A stretch of 25,211 bases of DNA from positions 1 to 25,211 of the IMG/VR virus record IMGVR_UViG_3300047173_000105; one strand, given 5' to 3'. Each line of letters begins with the position of its first letter. Positions within the stretch are counted from its first letter, which is position 1. The stretch comes from a virus. The notes beneath the pieces are model-generated. The model searched no databases. It was given only the letters and a program-made list of their open reading frames with translations, and was not told the DNA's origin. Position numbers and translations under genes: made by a program. Shown piece by piece: positions 4,846-17,412 of this stretch.

Positions 4846-6279
4846 ATGCCGGGGCATCGCGACGGCCTGCAAGGGGCTTTGGAAGACAACGTACTGGTGG
4901 TTGTTGTCTATTCCGATGCGCATGCCCCGGCGATCATCCGCCGGGTTGACCCAAAACTATTTTCCGACCGGCCGCATCGGATCATCGCCGAGACGGCGTA
5001 CGCCTATGTCCAAAAGTACCATGAAGCCCCTCGCGAGCATATCCGCGACCTGTTGGAACCCCGGCTGGCCCGCGGCGACGAAGGCCGGATGCTGCTCCGA
5101 ATTGTGGAAGCCATGGTGACGCTGGCGCCGACACTCAACACCGCCTATGTAATGGATCAGCTCGACGCCTGGATTGAAGAGCGTCGGCTGACCATGGCGG
5201 CAGAAAAAACGCTTGATCTGCTCGGCGCGCACCGGCTGGACGAAGCCCGTGAGGCGTTCTACGCGGCGCGACCGATCCCTACCGCCAATAGCGAGGGCAT
5301 CTGGCTATCCGACGCCCAGGCCATGACACGGTTCATGGACCCGAAAGACGACGAATATTATTCCAGCGGCATCGACGTGCTGGATGTCCGCGGCATCCGG
5401 CCAATGCGCAAACGAGCGATGTTGCTGATCGCCCCGGCAAAAATCGGCAAATCGTGGTTCCTGACCGGGATCGGCAAAGCCAATATATTTTTGCGCCATC
5501 CGGTTTTACATATTACTTTAGAAATGCCAGAAGAGGAAGTAGCACAACGCTATGTGCAAAGCCTCTATAGCATGTCAAAGCAGGAGGGGGCGCTTCGGGT
5601 ACCGGAATTCGTCAAGGATGACATCGGTGCCTGCATTTCGATCGATTTTGATACCCAGATACCAGAGGTACTTACTTCAGACAAGCGGGCCGATATCATG
5701 CACCGGCTGAGCAGCCTGAAACACCGATCACGGTTGCTGATCAAGGAATTTCCTAGCGGTACATTAACCATTCCGCATTTGTGTGCCTTTTTTGATGAAC
5801 TGGCGTTGCAGCACAGTTTTAAGCCGTCATTGGTAATTTTGGATTATCCGAAATTGATGAAACTCGATAGCCAAAATATCCGGATCGATCTGGGCCAAAC
5901 ATTGGTAATGCTACGCGGTTTGGCGACGATCTACAATTTCGCACTTTGCGTAGTAGCACAAGGCAACCGCGGCTCGGCCAGCGCCAAAACGGTACGGACC
6001 GACCATGTCCAGGAAGATTGGTCACAGATCGGCACCGCCGACGTTATCCTGACCCTGTCGCGCACTGAGGCGGAAAAAGCGTTGGGACTGGCGCGGGTGT
6101 TCGTGCAATCGGCACGATTCGCGCCTGACGGCTTTATGGTAATGATTTCGCAGAGTTACGCTACCGGGCAGTTTTGCCTTGATAGCACGCTCATGACTAA
6201 GAAACTATCGGGCGAGGTCGCAAAGCTCAACGGTGGCGATGATACGGATGATGACAAACCCGAAGCGGCAAAGGTGTAA
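4846..6279 (+). CDS. DnaB/T4 gp41-type replicative DNA helicase
   Basis: A 477-residue RecA-fold hexameric helicase. The N-terminal part carries the DnaB-type helical domain (LFSDRPHRIIAETAYAYVQ, then AP and the helix after it). The ATPase core has Walker A APAKIGKS (residues 196-203; DnaB proteins also begin this motif with Ala), a Walker B LVILDY with Asp333, a VVAQGNRG strand with the sensor region, and a C-terminal segment in the position of the arginine finger and DNA-binding loops (around SQIGTADVILTLSRTEAEK). It should unwind the phage replication fork on the lagging-strand template. The start at ATG 4846 is 3 nt after the upstream stop; its ribosome-binding site is weak, suggesting coupling. 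Confidence 0.88.
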   Translation: MPGHRDGLQGALEDNVLVVVVYSDAHAPAIIRRVDPKLFSDRPHRIIAETAYAYVQKYHEAPREHIRDLLEPRLARGDEGRMLLRIVEAMVTLAPTLNTAYVMDQLDAWIEERRLTMAAEKTLDLLGAHRLDEAREAFYAARPIPTANSEGIWLSDAQAMTRFMDPKDDEYYSSGIDVLDVRGIRPMRKRAMLLIAPAKIGKSWFLTGIGKANIFLRHPVLHITLEMPEEEVAQRYVQSLYSMSKQEGALRVPEFVKDDIGACISIDFDTQIPEVLTSDKRADIMHRLSSLKHRSRLLIKEFPSGTLTIPHLCAFFDELALQHSFKPSLVILDYPKLMKLDSQNIRIDLGQTLVMLRGLATIYNFALCVVAQGNRGSASAKTVRTDHVQEDWSQIGTADVILTLSRTEAEKALGLARVFVQSARFAPDGFMVMISQSYATGQFCLDSTLMTKKLSGEVAKLNGGDDTDDDKPEAAKV

Positions 6280-6286
6280 CATAATC

Positions 6287-7915
6287 GTGACGTATCTTAC
6301 AGCAATATTCCCGCTACGTGTAACCCGTCGCAAGAGCTGTGCGATAGAGCGTGTCTATACTACTGTCAATGATCTGTACTGGCAAATGATGTTAATCTAC
6401 CAACCCGACGCCGAGGCGATTATCGACATAGATAACGAGATTGCCGCGGCACGAATTGAGCTAAAACAACTTGAAGCCGGCAAGCGTAAGGACCGGTTGG
6501 CAGACCAACTAAAAACCATGAACACGCAGCGACGCGAACTTGAGCGGTTTATTGCAAAGGTAGCGGCTGAATACGCCCTAAATACCGGAAAGATATCTGA
6601 GCCGGTAGCAACCGGCCTTGCCCGTAATGTCTGGTCATCAATCGAAAGTTATATCGGATTACGCGCTGGGCGACAAGGCGATACCGCAAATTATCCAACG
6701 CCCGACAACCCCAGTATGTTACCAAACTACGCTGAATTGTTGGACACATTTGCCGGTTCCACCAACCGGGAACAGGAAAGCGAATCTCGCAAAGAGCTGC
6801 TACGTCGCCAGAAAGACTACAAAGGGGTTCCCATTCTCCTGGCACGCGAACGCGATACAAGACTGATCCGCCTTGGCGACAACGGTAAAATCGCTACCAT
6901 CCTTAATATCCTCCGGGCATCCGATCCACGATCGCGCAAAGCACTTATACGCCCTGGGGTCGATGCCACAACCGGAGAGATGCTAAATGCAATGCAGTCT
7001 GCCACGCGATTGATTATACCTATTGATTGCTCTAAATGGCATGAACAAAAGTTTTTTTCCGGCAAAGCGTCGCTAAAATCCAGTCTGATCGTAAAGGGCG
7101 ATGATCGCAATAGCTGGAATTTGCACGCTCAGTTTGAATTTTCTGTTAACGAATTGGAACTGACCGGCAACGTGCTTGGAGTTGATCGCGGAATCGTTAA
7201 CCCTATCGCCATTTCGGTCGTTGACACCAGCGGGAAGGTGTTGGATATTCCTGATCCACAAGGCGGCGAGATGATGGGTATAATTCGCGCTGCCGCACTA
7301 CGAAAACGCGCCAGAAACCAGCGATTTGGGATTACATCCAGTGTCAGCTATAACAACACGGTCAACGATCTGCTGCACCGGCTGGCTAACCAGATTGTCG
7401 CACTGGCCAAACGCTATGGCGCCAAGGTTGTGTTTGAGCAGTTGGATTCGCTGAAAGCTGTTAAAAAAGGTAATTGGGGCAAGAGTTTGAAAGCGGCGCA
7501 GTTGGGTAAATTGGAAACTATTGTAAATTACAAATTGCGATTGGCGGGATTGCCGTTGTTGCAAGGTGTTCCTGCTTACAACACGTCGAACACCTGCCCA
7601 CGGTGCAGTCATAGCAACAGTGAAAACCGCTCAAAGCAGGTTTTCTGTTGTCTATCATGCGGCCTGACAGCGCACGCTGATTCGGTCGCGGCAATTAACA
7701 TCGCTCGGCGGTTGCTGGCGATGCAGCGTCGACAGGCGCGCAACAGCGCGTCGGGAAAGGAGGAACTGACACGAATTGAACAAGAGATAGCTTCGCAACT
7801 ACGAAGCAAAAAGTCTAGCGGGCTAGGGCCATTGGTCGCTTACGAGCCGCCAGTGGGTTTGTCGCGGCCCGTGCGTACTGCGGATCACGTTGTATACGCT
7901 GGATTTCCAGGTTAG
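6287..7915 (+). CDS. Compact Cas12/TnpB-like RNA-guided nuclease candidate (RuvC plus zinc ribbon)
   Basis: A 542-residue protein from GTG 6287, 7 nt after the helicase stop, with AAAGG about 12 nt upstream. The N-terminus begins with a strand and basic turn (IFPLRVTRRK), then a long charged helical region (about residues 40-100), as in the recognition lobe of TnpB and small Cas12 proteins. The RuvC nuclease is split: GVDRG with Asp300, VVFEQLDSL with Glu384, and AHADSVAAINIARR with Asp465. A zinc ribbon lies between the last two (CPRC 437-440 and CLSC 455-458). All catalytic acids are present, unlike dead TnpB-derived repressors. There is no TnpA nearby. Directly downstream are hairpin repeats at 8011-8282. 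It could be a phage Cas12 effector or a domesticated TnpB; the subtype is not assignable by eye. Confidence 0.85.
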   Translation: MTYLTAIFPLRVTRRKSCAIERVYTTVNDLYWQMMLIYQPDAEAIIDIDNEIAAARIELKQLEAGKRKDRLADQLKTMNTQRRELERFIAKVAAEYALNTGKISEPVATGLARNVWSSIESYIGLRAGRQGDTANYPTPDNPSMLPNYAELLDTFAGSTNREQESESRKELLRRQKDYKGVPILLARERDTRLIRLGDNGKIATILNILRASDPRSRKALIRPGVDATTGEMLNAMQSATRLIIPIDCSKWHEQKFFSGKASLKSSLIVKGDDRNSWNLHAQFEFSVNELELTGNVLGVDRGIVNPIAISVVDTSGKVLDIPDPQGGEMMGIIRAAALRKRARNQRFGITSSVSYNNTVNDLLHRLANQIVALAKRYGAKVVFEQLDSLKAVKKGNWGKSLKAAQLGKLETIVNYKLRLAGLPLLQGVPAYNTSNTCPRCSHSNSENRSKQVFCCLSCGLTAHADSVAAINIARRLLAMQRRQARNSASGKEELTRIEQEIASQLRSKKSSGLGPLVAYEPPVGLSRPVRTADHVVYAGFPG

Positions 7916-8010: not shown

Positions 8011-8282
8011 ATCGCGAGGATGTTGGGAGCGCGACTCGTCGGGATGTCGTGAGGATCACGACGACGTGGTCAGATCGATTTCCAGCGCCGCATGGGGAAG
8101 CGCGACCGGTAGGATCGGGCTTGCCGCGTTCATGGGGAAGCGCGACGTAGCTAATATGACGATTATCAACGTCAAGAACGTGCCGGGTTCATGGGGGAGC
8201 GCGACTGAGTGACCTGGGTTGTCGCACTCTCATGTCCCGAACAACCGCGGCAGCGCACCCCGTGTTCATGGGGGAGCGCGAC
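8011..8282 (+). CRISPR. Degenerate hairpin-repeat array next to the Cas12/TnpB-like gene (candidate guide-RNA array)
   Basis: Four repeats share the core CATGGGGRAGCGCGAC, ending at 8106, 8146, 8205 and 8282. A fifth, more diverged copy (TTGGGAGCGCGAC) ends at 8035. The last three are preceded by GTTC or a close variant. In the copy ending at 8282 a 7-bp stem (CGTGTTC with GAGCGCG) closes the loop ATGGGG and leaves a 3' AC; the copies ending at 8146 and 8205 fold the same way with one mismatch. A 3' hairpin followed by a guide is the usual arrangement of type V crRNAs. The end-to-end spacings (71, 40, 59, 77) are irregular, so this is not a standard CRISPR array. The unique stretches between repeats would be guides of about 16-53 nt. 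A set of protein-binding sites is the alternative. Confidence 0.45.
8046..8062 (+). other. Perfect stem-loop inside the first inter-repeat segment
   Basis: GTCGTG (8046-8051) pairs with CACGAC (8057-8062) around the loop AGGAT, within the segment between the diverged first repeat and the next copy. A self-complementary spacer would be unusual, so this part may be scaffold rather than guide, for example a tracr-like or omega-RNA-like domain. Confidence 0.4.
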
Positions 8283-10717: not shown

Positions 10718-11093
10718 TGCCAGCAATCAGCCACTCGCACGAATCAGGTGTTTCAATCTCGCACGAATCAGGTGTTTCAATCGCTTCATCCCCATCGTAC
10801 ACAACTATACGGTAGCGAGTGCCCTCTAGTACCTCGGCGATGGCCAGATCGGCAAACTGTCCATTTGCCGCGGTACCAAGCTCTTCCACAACTTGGACAA
10901 GCACCGGATCGTCCCGAGGTATTTCATCATTTTGCTCGGCGTGCCGTGCAGCCTGTTCGGTGATGCCCTTCAGCGCCGTATAACGGTTAAGCGCGGCGCT
11001 GCTAAGACCAAAGCCCCCCATACGATTATTGTACACGATTTTCGTCATTGCCTTGGTGGCGGCAGCAACAAGCGCCTTATGTGATTGAGTCAT
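10707..11093 (-). CDS. Conserved phage hypothetical protein (YNNRMGGFGLS family pattern)
   Basis: A 128-residue protein of a pattern I know from many phages: an N-terminal KIVYNNRMGGFGLS strand-turn, DEIPRDDPVLVQVVEELG in the middle, and a C-terminal YRIVVYDGDEAIETP. Function is unknown across the family. The ATG at 11093 has AGAAGGG about 7 nt upstream. Odd point: the C-terminus carries an 8-residue tandem duplication (IETPDSCE twice), caused by a perfect 24-bp repeat. It is the last gene of the leftward operon that starts near 12150. Confidence 0.75.
   Translation of the reverse strand: MTQSHKALVAAATKAMTKIVYNNRMGGFGLSSAALNRYTALKGITEQAARHAEQNDEIPRDDPVLVQVVEELGTAANGQFADLAIAEVLEGTRYRIVVYDGDEAIETPDSCEIETPDSCEWLIAGTTR
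10734..10781. repeat. Perfect 24-bp tandem duplication within a coding region
   Basis: Two adjacent identical 24-bp units (10734-10757 and 10758-10781) beginning CTCGCACGAATC. The length is a multiple of three, so the frame is kept and the encoded protein gains one extra IETPDSCE unit. Perfect identity suggests a recent replication-slippage event. Confidence 0.9.
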
Positions 11094-12207: not shown

Positions 12208-12275
12208 GAAAAAGGTAGCAGCCGTCAAAAAAGTTTTTTCAAAAATGCCAAAAAAACTCTTGTGGAAAAAGGTAG
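12208..12275. repeat. 11-bp direct repeat in the divergent promoter region
   Basis: GAAAAAGGTAG occurs at 12208-12218 and again at 12265-12275, flanking an A/T-rich imperfect palindrome (CAAAAAAGTTTTTTC at about 12226-12240). The second copy lies inside the rightward promoter spacer. The arrangement could be operator sites for a regulator of both promoters. Confidence 0.4.
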
Positions 12276-12288
12276 AAAATCGTATATA
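12241..12288 (+). promoter_or_regulatory. Rightward promoter, first copy of a duplicated promoter element
   Basis: -35 TTGTGG (12260-12265) and -10 TATATA (12283-12288) with a 17-nt spacer. The 25 bases ending in the -35 (12241-12265) are identical to 15883-15907, and similarity continues downstream through GGCGCCT and a GGGG..CCCCACC hairpin. It drives the small-gene block from 12569. Confidence 0.75.
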
Positions 12289-12493
12289 GGTAATGCGGAT
12301 GGCGCCTGAGCGAAAAGCCTTCCACCGGGGATCAGACCCCACCGAGAGAACGAACGACTGGTGCAAGCCCGGTCCTAGGCCAGCCGCGTGGCCTGCAGAG
12401 ATCACCCCTGGAAACAGCCGGCAATTGCGCCGGGACATTAAGGTAACTAACAGCAGCGTTGGCAACCTGACCAGGGGGCCTAAGCCAAGCTGC
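12289..12493 (+). other. Long untranslated leader, structured
   Basis: About 205 nt between the promoter and the first intercistronic hairpin with no convincing gene. It contains small inverted repeats: GGGG/CCCC around 12329-12342, GGCC..GGCC around 12378-12392, and CCGGC (12418-12422) with GCCGG (12429-12433). One frame is open but lacks a start signal. It could be a small RNA or a regulatory leader; I match no known class. Confidence 0.4.
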
Positions 12494-12548
12494 CGAAAAA
12501 AGACGACTGCCGCTGGCGTGACAGGCTTGCGGCATGCGTGTTTTTTCG
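12494..12548 (+). promoter_or_regulatory. Intercistronic two-tier hairpin, copy a
   Basis: Outer stem 12494-12504 pairs with 12538-12548 (CG plus six A-T pairs, a G-G mismatch at 12502/12540, then AC/GT). A G-C pair and an AC/TG internal loop lead to the inner stem TGCCGC (12508-12513) with GCGGCA (12529-12534). The start codon of the next gene is 21 nt downstream. The 3' T-run is part of the outer stem, so this copy may also act as a terminator. Confidence 0.7.
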
Positions 12549-12568
12549 CTACCAACAGGAGCTGTCAA

Positions 12569-12667
12569 GTGTCTAAGTTTTTCGCTAAGGTTGCCGCTTG
12601 GATCGATTACAACTTCGGCTTCAGCGGTGAACCACCTACGCTGACCTACTACATCCCGATCCACTAA
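12569..12667 (+). CDS. 32-aa small protein, first of the rightward small-gene block
   Basis: GTG 12569 has CAGGAG about 7 nt upstream. The peptide starts MSKFFAKVAAWIDYNFGF and ends in TYYIPIH; it is aromatic-rich with a short amphipathic helix. The frame is open further upstream, but the strong ribosome-binding site and intercistronic hairpin a decide this start. Hairpins flank the gene on both sides. No homologue is recognised. Confidence 0.6.
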   Translation: MSKFFAKVAAWIDYNFGFSGEPPTLTYYIPIH

Positions 12668-12678
12668 AAAGATCGGGG

Positions 12679-12720
12679 CTCAGATGCCTGCCGGGCCAAG
12701 GCGCCCGGCTTTCATGTGAG
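12679..12720 (+). promoter_or_regulatory. Intercistronic two-tier hairpin, copy b
   Basis: Outer stem CTCA-G-AT (12679-12685) pairs with AT-G-TGAG (12714-12720), keeping the G-G mismatch but with AT/AT replacing AC/GT. A 3x3 CCT/TTT internal loop leads to inner stem GCCGGGC (12690-12696) with GCCCGGC (12703-12709). The start codon is 15 nt downstream. Confidence 0.75.
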
Positions 12721-12734
12721 TGACGGAGACGGTG

Positions 12735-12998
12735 ATGACTAACCTTTCCAAGCGTGCCCAGAAGGCGGTTGACGTGCTGGCCCAGGGCGGCCGGTTTGTC
12801 AATCGGCTTGAACGCGACAATTACACCGGCCGCGAGCAATTCCACCAACGACTGTTCACCAGCAAGTCTCGCACCAGTCTGGTGAAGGGTTTTGGTTTCG
12901 CAGCTTTCAATGAGCTGATGCAGGCCGGCTTGCTGGTCTACGCCGACGGCGAATGGACCAGCGTGAGCGAGGTCTACAAGCTGCCCGAGCTGGCCTGA
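12735..12998 (+). CDS. Small hypothetical protein, possible winged helix
   Basis: An 87-residue protein starting MTNLSKRAQKAVDVLAQGG. ATG 12735 has GGAG 6 nt upstream; the GTG at 12720 overlaps hairpin b and is unlikely. Helical N-terminus and the C-terminal FNELMQAGLLVYADGEWTSV resemble the wing region of small DNA-binding domains (a helix, then 'aGLl' and a hairpin). This is suggestive only. It lies between hairpin copies b and c. Confidence 0.65.
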   Translation: MTNLSKRAQKAVDVLAQGGRFVNRLERDNYTGREQFHQRLFTSKSRTSLVKGFGFAAFNELMQAGLLVYADGEWTSVSEVYKLPELA

Positions 12999-13011
12999 AA
13001 CTGATCTAGAG

Positions 13012-13026
13012 CCCGCAAAGAGCGGG
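13012..13026 (+). other. Short GC-rich stem-loop after the 87-aa gene
   Basis: CCCGC (13012-13016) pairs with GCGGG (13022-13026) around AAAGA, directly before intercistronic hairpin c. It may help terminate or stabilise the upstream transcript. Confidence 0.4.
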
Positions 13027-13070
13027 ACTCAGATGCCTGCCGGGCGCAGTCGCCCGGCTTTCATGTGAGT
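13027..13070 (+). promoter_or_regulatory. Intercistronic two-tier hairpin, copy c
   Basis: Outer stem 13027-13034 pairs with 13063-13070 (ACTCA/TGAGT, G-G mismatch, AT/AT). The 3x3 CCT/TTT loop is identical to copy b. Inner stem GCCGGGCG (13039-13046) pairs perfectly with CGCCCGGC (13051-13058) around CAGT. Copies b and c share most of their sequence outside the inner loop. The next ATG is 24 nt downstream. Confidence 0.8.
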
Positions 13071-13093
13071 GACTACCAACAGGAGACTACCAA

Positions 13094-13327
13094 ATGACTA
13101 CCAGATCACTGAGCGCTATCGCCGCTGAAATCAGGCGGGATTGGAAAAAGCCCAACTACGCCGCGGTACCCTACCTGGACGCCATGCGTGGTCTGGACAA
13201 GATCACCGATACCTACATCGCCGACTCGGCCAAGTCGATCGTGACCTACTTCCTCGGCAATGCCGGCTCATGGCGCGGCGAGGTGGCCAAGCGGGTCAAG
13301 GCCGAATTGAGGGCCATGACCAAGTAG
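13094..13327 (+). CDS. Conserved phage hypothetical protein (LSAIAAEIRRDW family pattern)
   Basis: A 77-residue helical protein of a type I recall from many phages and prophages: SAIAAEIRRDWKKPNYAAVPYLDAM, then DSAKSIVTYFLGNAGSWRGE, and a basic C-terminal helix. Function is unknown in the family. ATG 13094 follows ACAGGAG by about 9 nt. It lies between intercistronic hairpins c and d. Confidence 0.8.
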   Translation: MTTRSLSAIAAEIRRDWKKPNYAAVPYLDAMRGLDKITDTYIADSAKSIVTYFLGNAGSWRGEVAKRVKAELRAMTK

Positions 13328-13328
13328 A

Positions 13329-13377
13329 GGATTGAAGACGACTGCCACCGGGGCTCGGTGGCAGGCGCGTTCAATCC
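13329..13377 (+). promoter_or_regulatory. Intercistronic two-tier hairpin, copy d
   Basis: Outer stem GGATTGAA (13329-13336) pairs perfectly with TTCAATCC (13370-13377), next to the G-G mismatch (13337/13369). After an internal loop, CTGCCACCG (13342-13350) pairs perfectly with CGGTGGCAG (13356-13364) around GGGCT. The next ATG is 19 nt downstream. Confidence 0.85.
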
Positions 13378-13395
13378 GGAACGAAGGAAAAAACC

Positions 13396-13620
13396 ATGTC
13401 ACCGAAAACCGCCGAAGTGCTTGCACTGCTTCGCAAGTACAATGAAGGCGAATCATCGCGGACACCGGATGGTGCGGTGTTTGCCACTATCTACCTTGAC
13501 AATGCCCGGCCCGAAGGTATGTCGGCACCTGCTTTCGCCGGCCACCTTTCCGCGCTTAAGGCCCTTGGGCTTTACAAGGGCTACGGCGACGATGCCTTCG
13601 GCGAGGTCAAACTCGCCTGA
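13396..13620 (+). CDS. Small hypothetical protein
   Basis: A 74-residue protein (MSPKTAEVLALLRKYNEGES, ending FGEVKLA). The layout of an N-terminal helix, then AFAGHLSALKALGLYKG and a final strand, again fits a small helix-turn-helix-like fold, but no family is recognised. ATG 13396 has AAGGA about 9 nt upstream. It is flanked by intercistronic hairpins d and e. Confidence 0.7.
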   Translation: MSPKTAEVLALLRKYNEGESSRTPDGAVFATIYLDNARPEGMSAPAFAGHLSALKALGLYKGYGDDAFGEVKLA

Positions 13621-13666
13621 TCTAAAGACGCTTGCCGGCGGTTCGCCGCCGGCTTCCGTGTTTCGA
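13621..13666 (+). promoter_or_regulatory. Intercistronic two-tier hairpin, copy e
   Basis: Outer arms pair TC/GA and AAA/TTT, followed by the conserved G-G mismatch (13627/13660) and ACG/CGT. A pyrimidine 3x3 internal loop leads to the perfect stem GCCGGCGG (13634-13641) with CCGCCGGC (13646-13653) and a TTCG loop. The next start codon (13679) is 13 nt downstream. Confidence 0.75.
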
Positions 13667-13678
13667 ATTGGGATGACA

Positions 13679-13867
13679 ATGACCAGACAAAAAGAACTGA
13701 AATACCGCTGGGTAGTGGTAACTGAAACCCACCACGTGGTGATCGATGACACGTCTACCCGCCGATCCTACCCGACCAAGTTCAAGGCTATGGCAGCGCG
13801 GGACCGGGCGGAAAAGCGCTACCCGTCTTACACAAGCTACATAGTCGATCGTGAGGAAACCAAATGA
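13679..13867 (+). CDS. Small basic hypothetical protein
   Basis: A 62-residue protein (MTRQKELKYRWVVVTETHHV, later YPTKFKAMAARDRAEKRYP). ATG 13679 is preceded by a weak GGGA; ATG 13673, two codons earlier, is an alternative. Beta strands at the start and a basic helix at the end could form a small nucleic-acid-binding domain, but this is not shown. Its TGA overlaps the next ATG (ATGA). Confidence 0.65.
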   Translation: MTRQKELKYRWVVVTETHHVVIDDTSTRRSYPTKFKAMAARDRAEKRYPSYTSYIVDREETK

Positions 13868-14013
13868 CACGTACGATACAGCAGCAGGTCACTCGCCAAC
13901 AGCGGGTGGTCGAACGCACCCCACCGCGCCCGATGCTCGCTTACTACGCCGCACGCGACAAACTGGCGGCGCTGATGGCCGAACTGGCGCGTGCTGAAGC
14001 CTCTGCTCAATAG
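13864..14013 (+). CDS. 49-aa hypothetical protein
   Basis: A short ORF starting at ATG 13864 inside an ATGA overlap, with GAGG about 7 nt upstream, reading MTRTIQQQVTRQQRVVERTP and ending in a helix (LAALMAELARAEASAQ). It is basic and Gln-rich at the N-terminus. Overlap with the previous stop and the ribosome-binding site support it despite its length. Function is unknown. Confidence 0.65.
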   Translation: MTRTIQQQVTRQQRVVERTPPRPMLAYYAARDKLAALMAELARAEASAQ

Positions 14014-14042
14014 ACATCTGCCAGCGGTTCGCCGTTGGTCTA
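14011..14042 (+). promoter_or_regulatory. Hairpin with TTCG loop after the 49-aa gene, copy f (atypical)
   Basis: CCAGCGG (14021-14027) pairs with CCGTTGG (14032-14038, one G-T pair) around TTCG, with flanking TAGAC/GTCTA. It lacks the usual G-G mismatch layout and overlaps the stop codon, so it may be a degraded family member or a simple terminator. Confidence 0.5.
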
Positions 14043-14051
14043 AGCTACCCT

Positions 14052-14107
14052 GATCGCAAGACGTTCGCCTCCAGGATCGCTACCCTGGAGGCTTTCGTGT
14101 TTCGATC
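14052..14107 (+). promoter_or_regulatory. Intercistronic two-tier hairpin, copy g
   Basis: Outer stem GATCG (14052-14056) pairs with CGATC (14103-14107), then AA/TT, the G-G mismatch (14060/14099), and ACG/CGT. A 3x3 TTC/TTT loop leads to GCCTCCAGG (14067-14075) with CCTGGAGGC (14084-14092). The next ATG is 71 nt away, further than for other copies. Confidence 0.8.
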
Positions 14108-14177
14108 GCCAATTACACTTTTCGCATTGCGATTGTGTAGTTGATCTGCTAAAACACTTTCCGAAGGAGAAAGTCAT

Positions 14178-14483
14178 ATGGCTGCCAACATCACACCAGA
14201 AATCGCCCGCAACGCCAAGGCCGCCGCCGCTTCCGCGATGGTTGGCCGGAGCTGGGGTTGCGCCCGGGTTTATATCGGCTTCAGTAACTTGCTGACCGCT
14301 GCCGATATCAAGGCACTGACTGGTGCCGGGTTCAAGGTCACGAAGCGGCCGAATAGCGGACGCAAGTTTGTGTACTTCGGTTACGATAATGCCACCGGGC
14401 GGGAATACGCCCAGGCAACCGCAGTGGCCAGGGCGTTCACCGCGGCCGGCGTGTCGGCTTATGAAGACGCCGACGAAGACTGA
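14178..14483 (+). CDS. Hypothetical protein
   Basis: A 101-residue protein (MAANITPEIARNAKAAAASA, ending YEDADED). An N-terminal helix is followed by RVYIGFSN and FVYFGYDN strands, and an acidic tail, suggesting a small alpha/beta fold. ATG 14178 has GAAGGAG about 9 nt upstream. About 70 nt of A/T-richer DNA lies between hairpin g and this gene and may hold a weak promoter. I recognise no family. Confidence 0.7.
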   Translation: MAANITPEIARNAKAAAASAMVGRSWGCARVYIGFSNLLTAADIKALTGAGFKVTKRPNSGRKFVYFGYDNATGREYAQATAVARAFTAAGVSAYEDADED

Positions 14484-14530
14484 TCATCGCGACTGCCGAT
14501 CGGGGGTTTCCTGATCGGCATGCGTGTTGA
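14484..14530 (+). promoter_or_regulatory. Intercistronic two-tier hairpin, copy h
   Basis: An outer stem 14484-14490 pairs with 14524-14530 with one T-T mismatch. A G-C pair and the AC/TG internal loop precede the inner stem TGCCGATC (14494-14501) with GATCGGCA (14513-14520), extended by three pairs. It begins directly after a stop codon; the next ATG is 14 nt downstream. Confidence 0.75.
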
Positions 14531-14543
14531 ACAGGGGGCTGAA

Positions 14544-14783
14544 ATGGCAAATCGCAAACGGGCTTATGCCAACGAGCTGTACGAATATCCCAAGGTTGCG
14601 GAGGTGCTGAGAAAATCCAATCCTACCGACACCTACACGATCACGCTGCTGGTAGCACAGCAAGTGACCGGGGATTACACTGAAGGTGGTTATGCTACTC
14701 AGGTTGCCGACCGCGCCTGGGAATGGCGGTTGCTGCGGGATGCTGGCAAACTGGTACAGCCGATAACGATTGGAAGGAAGTAA
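14544..14783 (+). CDS. Small hypothetical protein
   Basis: A 79-residue protein (MANRKRAYANELYEYPKVAE, later YTITLLVAQQVTGDY and WEWRLLRDAGKL). It appears mainly helical with no membrane segment. ATG 14544 has AGGGGG about 6 nt upstream, preferred over the in-frame ATG at 14520 that lies inside hairpin h. The next gene starts 2 nt after its stop, so translation is probably coupled. Confidence 0.7.
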   Translation: MANRKRAYANELYEYPKVAEVLRKSNPTDTYTITLLVAQQVTGDYTEGGYATQVADRAWEWRLLRDAGKLVQPITIGRK

Positions 14784-14785
14784 CA

Positions 14786-14974
14786 ATGGACGTGGAAATT
14801 TCCAACCAGGGCACAATAGTTCTGATGACGCCGCTAACCGGCGAGGCGGCGGCATGGCTTGGTGAACACCTGCCAAGCGACGCGACCTTTTTGGACGCTT
14901 CGGTGGTGGTGGAACACCGCTTTGCCGATGACATAATTGCCGATATGCGTCGCGACGGGCTCGCCGTCGGCTGA
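14786..14974 (+). CDS. Small hypothetical protein
   Basis: A 62-residue acidic protein (MDVEISNQGTIVLMTPLTGE, later VVEHRFADDIIADMRRDGLAVG). Strand-helix-strand pattern with AAAWLGEHLP and HRFADDIIADM helices. GGAAGGAAG lies about 6 nt before ATG 14786. It forms a coupled pair with the upstream 79-aa gene; hairpin i follows. Function is unknown. Confidence 0.7.
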   Translation: MDVEISNQGTIVLMTPLTGEAAAWLGEHLPSDATFLDASVVVEHRFADDIIADMRRDGLAVG

Positions 14975-15019
14975 TGCAGGCGACTGCCACTGGGTGAGAG
15001 ACGGTGGCATGCGTGTGCA
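14975..15019 (+). promoter_or_regulatory. Intercistronic two-tier hairpin, copy i
   Basis: Outer TGCA (14975-14978) pairs with TGCA (15016-15019), followed by the G-G mismatch (14979/15015), GC/GT, and a G-C pair. The AC/TG internal loop leads to TGCCACTG (14985-14992) with CGGTGGCA (15002-15009). The next ATG is 16 nt downstream. Confidence 0.75.
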
Positions 15020-15034
15020 ACAGGAGTTACCCAA

Positions 15035-15601
15035 ATGGATATCAATGGCAACGAACTGCGGCGGGCGGTGCTCGCCGAGGCCGCCGCATGGCGGGCCTTG
15101 AACGTGCAGACCGGCAATGACAGCAACAGGCTGGGCGCGTGGTTGCGCGCCGAGTTTGTCGGCCAGATCGGCGAGACGTGGCCGGGCAACCGGCTACCGG
15201 ATGACGTACCGCCGGGCTGGCCGAAGCAATGCTTCCACAACGCCGGCCAGTTGGTCAGGCGCCGGCCGAAAACTCTAACCTATACCGAGGGCTACGGCAT
15301 GACCGCACGACTCGGCATGGCACTGCACCACGGCTGGGCAGTGCACCGGGACGGCCGGGTGGTCGACCCTACATGGACTGATGCCGAAGATACTGCCTAT
15401 CTCGGCGTGCGGATAACCCCGGAAGAGCACCGGAAATTCACCTCGAACGACTGGGGATCGGTGCTGGATTCACCGGACTTCACGCCGAATCTTGCACTGA
15501 TCCTACATCGTGCGCCGGACCTGCGCGACCTGATGAACAACACGGAAAAGACGTGGGTGGAACGCTACCTGAAGGTCAACAACATCACCATCGGAGGTTA
15601 A
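15035..15601 (+). CDS. Phage protein with possible Cys-His-Asp catalytic layout
   Basis: A 188-residue protein. KQCFHNAGQL (Cys about residue 66), then TYTEGYGM, ALHHGWAVHRDGRVVDPTW, and YLGVRIT in that order resemble papain/transglutaminase-like phage proteins in which Cys, His and Asp form the active site. Here the candidates are Cys66, one of the paired His residues near 104-105, and Asp in VVDPTW. Function is unproven; a peptidase or amidase is possible. ATG 15035 follows CAGGAG by about 10 nt and hairpin i. The next gene begins 2 nt after its stop. Confidence 0.7.
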   Translation: MDINGNELRRAVLAEAAAWRALNVQTGNDSNRLGAWLRAEFVGQIGETWPGNRLPDDVPPGWPKQCFHNAGQLVRRRPKTLTYTEGYGMTARLGMALHHGWAVHRDGRVVDPTWTDAEDTAYLGVRITPEEHRKFTSNDWGSVLDSPDFTPNLALILHRAPDLRDLMNNTEKTWVERYLKVNNITIGG

Positions 15602-15603
15602 AA

Positions 15604-15834
15604 ATGTTAGTATGGACTGAAAGATACAACTGCCACTCGGCTAAGGTCGGGCGGGTTGGCAAACTAGAAGTCAATTGGGACAAGTCGGGCTACAAAGTCG
15701 CCGCCTTCGGCGTGACACTGACAACCTTGTCACCTGACGTTGAAGACGGCAAGCGGCGGGCGATCAAGTTGGCACGCCGGTTGTTAGCTGAAGCGGCGGC
15801 TGAGATGCAAGACGCGCTGGCCGATACCAAGTGA
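15604..15834 (+). CDS. Small hypothetical protein
   Basis: A 76-residue protein (MLVWTERYNCHSAKVGRVGK, later GVTLTTLSPDVEDGKRRAIKLARR). N-terminal strands and a basic C-terminal helix ending EMQDALADTK. GGAGG lies about 7 nt before ATG 15604. It starts 2 nt after the previous gene and is followed by a terminator hairpin, so it closes the first rightward small-gene unit. Confidence 0.7.
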   Translation: MLVWTERYNCHSAKVGRVGKLEVNWDKSGYKVAAFGVTLTTLSPDVEDGKRRAIKLARRLLAEAAAEMQDALADTK

Positions 15835-15840
15835 CCTGCC

Positions 15841-15880
15841 CAGCCCGGAAAAACCCCGGGCTGGCGGGCTTAAAATAATT
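15841..15880 (+). terminator. Intrinsic terminator-like hairpin
   Basis: CAGCCCGG (15841-15848) pairs perfectly with CCGGGCTG (15856-15863) around an A-rich loop; an A/T-rich tract (TTAAAATAATTT) follows after a few bases. It lies just before the second copy of the duplicated promoter, so it separates two transcription units. Confidence 0.6.
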
Positions 15881-15882
15881 TG

Positions 15883-15930
15883 AAAAATGCCAAAAAAACT
15901 CTTGTGGTCGGGGCGGGAAAAGTGTATATA
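15883..15930 (+). promoter_or_regulatory. Rightward promoter, second copy of the duplicated promoter element
   Basis: -35 TTGTGG (15902-15907) and -10 TATATA (15925-15930), 17-nt spacer. The 25 bases 15883-15907 are identical to those at 12241-12265; the spacer sequence differs. Downstream both copies carry GCGCCT and a GGGG..CCCCACC hairpin in the leader. It drives genes from 16123. Confidence 0.75.
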
Positions 15931-16063
15931 AGTAAGTGCGGACGGCGCCTTTCCCAGCCACCACCCGCCGGGGTCCACCCCACCAGAGAGATCGCGAGGG
16001 CCGTCTAGCCGGCCACTAGGTAGTGTATGATAGCCGGAGACGAAAAAAGCAAAATTCAACAAA

Positions 16064-16098
16064 GAGGTTTGCCGCCGAGTGAGACGGCGGCTTTCCTC
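16064..16098 (+). promoter_or_regulatory. Intercistronic two-tier hairpin, copy j (variant)
   Basis: GAGG (16064-16067) pairs with CCTC (16095-16098); a TTT/TTT 3x3 internal loop precedes the perfect stem GCCGCCG (16071-16077) with CGGCGGC (16085-16091). The G-G mismatch is not present. The next ATG is 25 nt downstream. Confidence 0.65.
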
Positions 16099-16122
16099 AG
16101 ACCTTTCTAATGGAGACACAAG

Positions 16123-16236
16123 ATGCTATTGCAAGTCAAGATTTGGCTGCATGACGCGGCTTGGCGCATCATGCAGGCCACCGGGCTCGACCCGGTGACC
16201 TTCGCCTGGGCACCGAACGTGCCGGGCCTGACCTGA
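16123..16236 (+). CDS. 37-aa small protein
   Basis: ATG 16123 has TGGAGA about 7 nt upstream. The peptide reads MLLQVKIWLHDAAWRIMQAT and continues with a Pro-rich tail; the first half could form an amphipathic helix. It is the first gene after the second duplicated promoter, the same position as the 32-aa gene at 12569, although the two peptides are not clearly similar. Confidence 0.6.
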   Translation: MLLQVKIWLHDAAWRIMQATGLDPVTFAWAPNVPGLT

Positions 16237-16270
16237 ATACGGATGCCGGCTGATGGCCGGCATTGGTATT
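16236..16270 (+). promoter_or_regulatory. Intercistronic two-tier hairpin, copy k
   Basis: Outer AATAC (16236-16240) pairs with GTATT (16266-16270); a GG/TG internal loop; inner ATGCCGGC (16243-16250) pairs perfectly with GCCGGCAT (16256-16263). Here the mismatch position is a T-A pair. The next ATG is 18 nt downstream, after GATCGGAGA shared with copy l. Confidence 0.8.
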
Positions 16271-16287
16271 TTGATCGGAGAGAAAAG

Positions 16288-16476
16288 ATGAAAAACATGA
16301 AAAACTTCACCAACGAGCAGCTTCAATCTTTTTGGGAGCAGGGCTTTGAAAATCGCGTGAAGTCTGGAGAGAGAAAGGGGCAGATCAAGATCAAGACCAT
16401 CCGATTTATGGATAAGGTCTTGGCTGAAGCAAGCCGTCGCTACTTCAAGCTGGTGACCCCGGCCAAATACCAATAG
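16288..16476 (+). CDS. Small basic hypothetical protein
   Basis: A 62-residue Lys-rich protein (MKNMKNFTNEQLQSFWEQGF, later RKGQIKIKTIRFMDKVLAEASRRYF). The basic helices suggest nucleic-acid or membrane-surface binding, unproven. ATG 16288 has CGGAGAG about 6 nt upstream, which excludes the earlier in-frame start at 16243 inside hairpin k. Confidence 0.7.
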   Translation: MKNMKNFTNEQLQSFWEQGFENRVKSGERKGQIKIKTIRFMDKVLAEASRRYFKLVTPAKYQ

Positions 16477-16491
16477 GACTGACATGGCGAC

Positions 16492-16535
16492 CTAAGACGG
16501 ATGCCGCTTATAAGTATGAGCGGCATTGGTGTTAG
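16492..16535 (+). promoter_or_regulatory. Intercistronic two-tier hairpin, copy l
   Basis: Outer CTAA-G-AC (16492-16498) pairs with GT-G-TTAG (16529-16535), including the G-G mismatch; a GG/TG loop; inner stem ATGCCGCTTAT (16501-16511) pairs with 16516-16526 (one T-G pair) around AAGT. The next ATG is 15 nt downstream. Confidence 0.85.
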
Positions 16536-16549
16536 ATCGGAGACTGAAA

Positions 16550-16999
16550 ATGACTATTGCCGAAAAAGTACTGCCACGGGTAACCGAGTACAGTGACCCG
16601 GTGGTCAACGCCAACTGGCACACGTCAAAAACCATCGCCACGGCAACCGCCGCGGTGCATGGCTACCCAATCGCCACGCTGGCCTATCGCACCGCCGGCT
16701 ACCAGCAGGGCGGCTCAATGGCGGTGTGGTCAGCCGAGGGCTGGTCGGTATCCTATGACTTCGACGGCGGGATACACGGCCAGCGCTTCGCGCCGGAAGA
16801 TGAGACTGCGGCGCGAGACTACTTCGCCAAGCTGACTGATCCCACCAAGGTCACCGCCCGGCGCGAGTCGGACGAACGGCTGGAACGGGAAGTCTACGGC
16901 CCGGCACGGATAGCCAGGGCCGCCGAGATCGCCGCCGACAAGGCAGCCAAGGCAGCTCGCGCCAAAGCCCGGCGGCTTCGGGAAGTTGACAATACCTAA
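16550..16999 (+). CDS. Hypothetical protein with beta-rich core and Ala/Lys-rich tail
   Basis: A 149-residue protein. The first 100 residues look like a beta-rich domain (ATLAYRTAGYQ, SMAVWSAEGWSVSYDFDGG); the last 40 are a charged helix (RAAEIAADKAAKAARAKARR), possibly a coiled coil or nucleic-acid-binding tail. ATG 16550 follows CGGAGA by about 7 nt and hairpin l. No family is recognised. Confidence 0.7.
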   Translation: MTIAEKVLPRVTEYSDPVVNANWHTSKTIATATAAVHGYPIATLAYRTAGYQQGGSMAVWSAEGWSVSYDFDGGIHGQRFAPEDETAARDYFAKLTDPTKVTARRESDERLEREVYGPARIARAAEIAADKAAKAARAKARRLREVDNT

Positions 17000-17172: not shown

Positions 17173-17412
17173 ATGACCAAACTCACCAGCGCCCGGCAAC
17201 GCGCACTCGCTTGGCTACCGGCGGACGGATCATGGAAAACAAATCCTGGCCGGCTATCCGCGGCACTCAATAGTCTTTCGCTCGGATGGCCCGGGTGTGT
17301 CGAAGCCCAGTGGGGGGCTTTCGGTCCCCGCGGAGGCCACGAACAACGGTGGCGGCTGACTTCCAAGGGCGTCGAACGGGCGCGGCAGTACCTGCCCACC
17401 AAACCGGAGTAA
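17173..17412 (+). CDS. Small hypothetical protein, possible winged helix
   Basis: A 79-residue protein (MTKLTSARQRALAWLPADGS, later WRLTSKGVERARQYL). Helix, linker, and a C-terminal RWRLTSKG strand-turn-helix resemble winged-helix proteins in which 'LT..G' ends the wing. ATG 17173 has GGAG 6 nt upstream; ATG 17161 directly precedes that GGAG and is less likely. DNA binding is inferred from pattern only. Confidence 0.65.
   Translation: MTKLTSARQRALAWLPADGSWKTNPGRLSAALNSLSLGWPGCVEAQWGAFGPRGGHEQRWRLTSKGVERARQYLPTKPE

Follow-up and report, generated by a model that had tools for sequence, protein, structure and literature searches.

The window analysed here, IMGVR_UViG_3300047173_000105, is an IMG/VR virus record of 25,211 bases from an uncultured phage; it is the whole contig, which is probably a genome fragment. 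Its genes encode an SbcC-like protein, a DnaB-like helicase, an SNF2 helicase and a DUF932 protein, followed by small unknown genes; those grouped on the minus strand towards the right end are taken as the structural genes. A close relative of the phage is absent from the collections searched. The window DNA has no match among 50,697 phage records, and its best protein relatives are about 40% identical (41-43% for DnaB, on contigs as long as 125 kb; 37-39% for the SNF2 helicase; about 40% for the DUF932 protein).

Two other features lie outside the region of interest. Between the DnaB and SNF2 helicase genes, positions 6233-7915 (+) encode a 560-aa TnpB/Cas12f-family protein, which scores 97.5 bits against guided_TnpB (just missing the cut-off of 100) and 86.7 bits against Cas12f2. 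This gene is followed, at 8022-8282, by four or five copies of CATGGGGRAGCGCGAC at irregular distances, which may be a mini-array or a guide RNA. There is also a perfect 24-nt tandem duplication at 10734-10781.

Two gene units and their intercistronic hairpins

The region of interest comprises two units in which a codon-usage gene caller places 14 gene starts. Both units open with a near-identical AAAAATGCCAAAAAAACTCTTGTGG and then TATATA, and the two heads have in common a 36-nt block that is 89% identical. Because a relative, G015, has similar TTTGTGG..TATAAA elements upstream of genes, we infer that these blocks are promoters (P1 and P2), from which units 1 and 2 would each be transcribed as polycistronic RNA. 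The near-identical promoter blocks come with a shared leader (12230-12340 and 15872-15985) that has GGAYGGCGCC and GGGG-loop-CCCC-ACC elements; this leader may itself be a structured RNA. The 22-nt promoter block has no match in viral contigs. The features are as follows, with model scores in bits:

12230..12290, +, putative promoter P1 (TTGTGG, then TATATA), opening unit 1
12291..12490, +, unit 1 leader (GGAYGGCGCC, then a GGGG..CCCC ACC element), common to the P2 leader
12494..12548, +, hairpin a, 40.7 bits, preceding a small ORF at 12569 (GTG)
12678..12721, +, hairpin b, 40.2 bits, preceding the gene at 12735
13027..13070, +, hairpin c, 43.0 bits, preceding the gene at 13094
13329..13377, +, hairpin d, 41.2 bits, preceding the gene at 13396
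13622..13665, +, hairpin e, 42.0 bits, preceding the gene at 13679
14052..14107, +, hairpin g, 37.5 bits, 70 nt upstream of the gene at 14178
14482..14531, +, hairpin h, 35.8 bits, held-out match, preceding the gene at 14544
14974..15020, +, hairpin i, 39.3 bits, held-out match, preceding the gene at 15035
15872..15931, +, putative promoter P2, opening unit 2
15932..16055, +, unit 2 leader, partly common to the unit 1 leader
16064..16098, +, hairpin j, 29.5 bits, held-out match, preceding a small ORF at 16123
16234..16271, +, hairpin k, 36.8 bits (13.8 bits held out), preceding the gene at 16288
16492..16535, +, hairpin l, 37.3 bits, held-out match, preceding the gene at 16550

The placement of the hairpins is strict. 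Across the two units, all 11 of the gene starts that are separated from the preceding gene have a hairpin, and none of the three coupled starts does (13864, overlapping; 14786 and 15604, 2-nt gaps), just as the first-pass annotation had said of overlapping or 2-nt-spaced pairs. Separated plus-strand genes elsewhere in the window contig have no match to the covariance model R1 described below. Relative to where the upstream stop codon ends, each hairpin begins between -3 and +38 nt, in most cases no more than 15 nt away (hairpin h overlaps that codon), and nearly occupies the whole intergenic gap while leaving the ribosome-binding site outside the stem. The distance to the start codon, earlier given as 13-25 nt, measures 12-24 nt for ten copies and 70 nt for g. 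The elements do not match intrinsic terminators, because no T run follows the G+C-rich hairpins in any spacer, the T run of copy a lying within its stem.

A shared register and its covariation

The 11 copies align without gaps except in the apical loop, in a register anchored on an invariant GCC/GGC block. From the outside in, this register consists of a variable outer stem, a G.G mismatch, ACG/CGT or ATG/CAT, a 3x3 internal loop, GCC/GGC and a variable inner stem. The GCC/GGC block is found in 11 of 11 copies and ACG/CGT or ATG/CAT in most, while the outer and inner stems drift among copies and the apical loops are likewise not conserved. The G.G mismatch, correctly described at the outset as the commonest state, is present in eight copies and is otherwise C-G (h), G-C (j, the shortest copy) or T-A (k). 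A separate loop type of GG/TG had also been proposed, but k and l fall in the same register with the G.G moved inward. By a tolerant count, nine of the 11 hairpins have 19-26 helical positions, or about two A-form turns. Hairpins b and c, which are 91% identical across 57 nt, look like a recent duplication. The original description listed a twelfth copy, f, at 14011; it was dropped from the family because it is not matched by the covariance model, folds more weakly (-13.6 kcal/mol) and adjoins g.

The structure scored for covariation was an outer stem, a 1x1 mismatch, 3 bp, a 3x3 loop and 7 bp. In the 11 copies 90.3% of cells are paired, compared with 67.7% in shuffles and 36-45% in controls with slid partners, and the covariation score is 0.608 versus 0.175 when shuffled. 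There are 39 double-changed cells against 12.9 in shuffles, with double changes at nine pairs of the shared structure; as the copies compared are paralogues within one genome, these counts reflect divergence among copies and not among orthologues. The claim that pairing is kept while stem sequence differs is thus borne out.

The covariance model that the first-pass annotation had proposed was built from the 11 copies (R1) and matches exactly those 11 on the plus strand of the window, at 29.5-43 bits, the next-best plus-strand match being 11.4 bits. To limit circularity, a second model (R2) was trained on a, b, c, d, e and g alone. It recovers the remaining five, with held-out scores of 32.5 (i), 22.5 (l), 17.1 (h), 16.6 (j) and 13.8 bits (k), although one unrelated plus-strand match (14.1 bits) outranks k. 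A plain descriptor recovers 10 copies of the family, missing one, and also picks up two other sites; over 200 dinucleotide shuffles it gives 1.5 matches on average and 7 at most. It follows that a set of chance hairpins picked by eye, for which the abundance of hairpins in G+C-rich phage DNA would be the reason, is scarcely credible; held-out recovery, shuffles and slid controls refute it for the 11, while it is possible for f.

The same columns bear on whether the elements act as RNA or DNA. Among paired columns there are eight G-U pairs and three A-C mismatches, of which two mismatches fall at the terminal pair, and this excess modestly favours a plus-strand RNA over a DNA palindrome. DNA-level palindromes (operators, recombination or replication sites, or palindromic mobile repeats) would be in keeping with copies that are imperfect inverted repeats and with the apparent recent duplication of b and c. 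They are nevertheless highly improbable given the G-U bias, the single orientation, the non-conserved apical loops, a position that tracks translation start sites and the conserved G-U pairs in the G001 family described below. The hairpins are very probably structured RNA. The broader proposal of a functional RNA structure on the plus strand has good support from covariation, G-U bias and strict placement.

Searches beyond the window and the related phages

No detectable copy of the window family was found in the viral contigs searched, and Rfam, at gathering and relaxed thresholds, gave no match (one sub-threshold, chance-level match falls within copy g). Exact hairpin patterns retrieved two stretches from IMG/VR in a stricter form and 98 in a looser form, with no clusters of copies among these loci. 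Both stretches of the stricter pattern (L008 and L009) and the pattern locus with the top model score (L031, 26.7 bits) lie in apparent coding regions and were treated as chance. Two loci from the scan, L017 and L053, are relatives by protein and led to the 106.8-kb record G001. The window model found no comparable family in G001, G003, G004, G011, G014, G015 or Edwardsiella phage ZHS, and no account of a phage hairpin family like that of the window was found in the open-access papers searched.

Just 3' of its SNF2 helicase gene, in a position equivalent to that of the window family, G001 carries a different cassette in 13 copies that all face the same way. Each combines a GGATGCAGC..GCTGCATC hairpin with a second, short hairpin and with CAATGGGAGAAC, located at the ribosome site. 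The cluster (L117 10452-18322, equivalent to G001 90.4-98.3 kb) lies upstream of gene starts, and coupled genes are without the cassette. The CAATGGGAGAAC motif is tightly conserved. The first stem is 99.2% paired, with 18 double-changed cells versus 5.4 when shuffled, and one of its pairs is G-U in 9 of 11 copies. A model of this cassette finds no family outside G001. The 125-kb G014 has several unrelated two-tier hairpins just 5' of ribosome-binding sites with no common consensus, and G015 has few such hairpins. The arrangement thus recurs with other sequences in part of the clade, which does not imply common ancestry of the families; in G001 the architecture is kept while the hairpin sequence turns over.

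Other repeats were seen in other records. In L006 a TGACCCCTTATCTAT motif is repeated across many gaps; it was set aside as a hairpin because of its promoter-like look. In L138, near-perfect palindromes around CAGCGCTGTATATATACAGCGCTG lie 5' of two genes (12300-12370 and 17230-17310, or G011 32.3 and 37.3 kb) and are possibly operators.

Known systems and possible functions

The nearest published arrangement is the SAS/ESAS system of Cluster K mycobacteriophages, which is also found in Cluster EF Microbacterium phages (PMC7302621). SAS/ESAS are inverted-repeat cassettes in one orientation, located in the larger gaps of the non-structural gene region, directly 5' of the ribosome sites of unrelated genes, and their consensus differs between subclusters (PMC3203893, PMC7302621). 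The 11 window copies are similarly inverted repeats on the plus strand only, just 5' of starts in larger gaps. Unlike SAS/ESAS, they lack the 13-bp SAS (GGGATAGGAGCCC), and a loose CAACAGGAG occurs in some spacers only; while a strict SAS is thus missing from the window family, that of G001 does have a SAS-like motif. The Cluster K authors judged the changes in the two repeats to be unsupportive of RNA pairing and preferred a DNA-binding protein (PMC3203893). In the window, by contrast, pairing is kept by compensatory changes, which strongly supports an RNA hairpin. The window family therefore falls outside the SAS/ESAS description, because those authors found little support for a hairpin in the mRNA.

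Functionally nearest are the early RNase III sites of T7. T7-group sites such as R1.1 are hairpins between cistrons, about two turns long and interrupted by an internal loop, and they mature the polycistronic transcript (PMC4858673, PMC6121014). The predicted window hairpins share the intercistronic location, the approximate length and the internal loop. They differ in that the R1.1 loop is asymmetric (4/5 nt) and the window loop symmetric, and in the sequence conservation of the central block across the 11 copies. In phage T4, CUUCGG intercistronic hairpins lie near ribosome sites. The T4 hairpins act on mRNA and, like those of the window, are upstream of phage genes. The T4 gene 43 operator, also a hairpin near a ribosome site, is a single autoregulatory site (PMC3014915), whereas the window has 11 copies whose stems covary and which share a conserved block in mid-helix.

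Our preferred but tentative explanation is that the hairpins are RNA punctuation of polycistronic phage mRNA. They would be sites at which it is processed or stabilised, and host RNase III is the lead candidate. A phage-specific family of cis-acting hairpins would punctuate the two polycistronic transcripts as double-stranded processing or stability signals. RNase III of the host, or a similar dsRNA-binding factor, would engage the two-turn helix around G.G / ACG-CGT / 3x3 / GCC-GGC and would cut or protect at the central block. Each ORF would thereby acquire a defined 5' end shortly before its Shine-Dalgarno sequence, while the preceding message would have its 3' end protected, as in the maturation of T7 early mRNA. 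The geometry fits RNase III: the dsRNA is about two turns long, an internal loop lies midway along the helix, and the sites number one for each boundary between cistrons of the presumed transcript. The non-repeated two-tier hairpins of G014 fit it as well, and the covariation, the strict placement and the G001 cassettes also speak for this explanation. A gene for RNase III was sought in the window and six related records and not found, so the host enzyme must be assumed. Points against RNase III are the symmetric internal loop, unlike that of R1.1, the shortness of copy j and the conserved ACG/CGT and GCC/GGC sequence; the enzyme has no obvious need for the latter, and a more specific reader is therefore suggested. 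The G001 cassette, with a 12-bp stem and a short second hairpin, would by its size be a poor RNase III substrate.

Such a reader is the basis of a possible, if somewhat doubtful, alternative, in which the hairpin serves as an address tag. An RNA-binding protein (or an RNA) encoded by the phage would bind this tag and either promote translation of phage mRNA or protect it. The mid-helix G.G and internal loop would widen the major groove so that its sequence could be read specifically, and tag and reader would be particular to each phage lineage. This would account for the fixed register and near-invariant central block in stems that otherwise drift, as well as for the different families in related phages and the conserved ribosome-site motif of G001, and similar terms were used in discussing SAS/ESAS in Cluster K (PMC3203893). 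A candidate reader was not found, however, the scanned proteins of the hairpin units in this partial contig being below family cut-offs. It is unlikely that the hairpins have no dedicated reader and are passive, stable structures that insulate the ribosome-binding site, stabilise 5' ends or block 3' exonucleases, even though they are located between stop codon and Shine-Dalgarno sequence. Replacing them with shuffled sequence raises the mean opening energy of the start region from 7.2 to 8.2 kcal/mol and is worse in 9 of 11 cases, but deleting them gives a similar energy (about 7.6 kcal/mol, a mean of per-site values), so that they are not needed for insulation; the conserved central block would also be left unexplained. 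In these folding calculations the ribosome site is not hidden by the hairpin and stays open without it, and what remains is reading by a factor.

Processing or stability punctuation is the reading we tentatively prefer. A bolder and rather improbable one is that a phage lineage labels the translation units of its operons by means of a fast-evolving, genome-specific RNA hairpin code; a co-evolving phage factor would read this code and would process, protect or preferentially translate phage mRNA.

Finally, the window family and that of G001 suggest that some phages punctuate their mRNAs with a fast-changing structural signal. If this is true, the function of SAS/ESAS-like cassettes, a question since 2011, becomes testable, because the signal in the window is clearly structural RNA and its conserved core is defined. 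The hairpins may also be useful as short parts that keep cistrons apart in synthetic operons. A further implication, if true, is that related phages retain the punctuation scheme and replace its sequence, and such turnover would be expected if the phages were in an arms race with host RNases or if the reader co-evolved.
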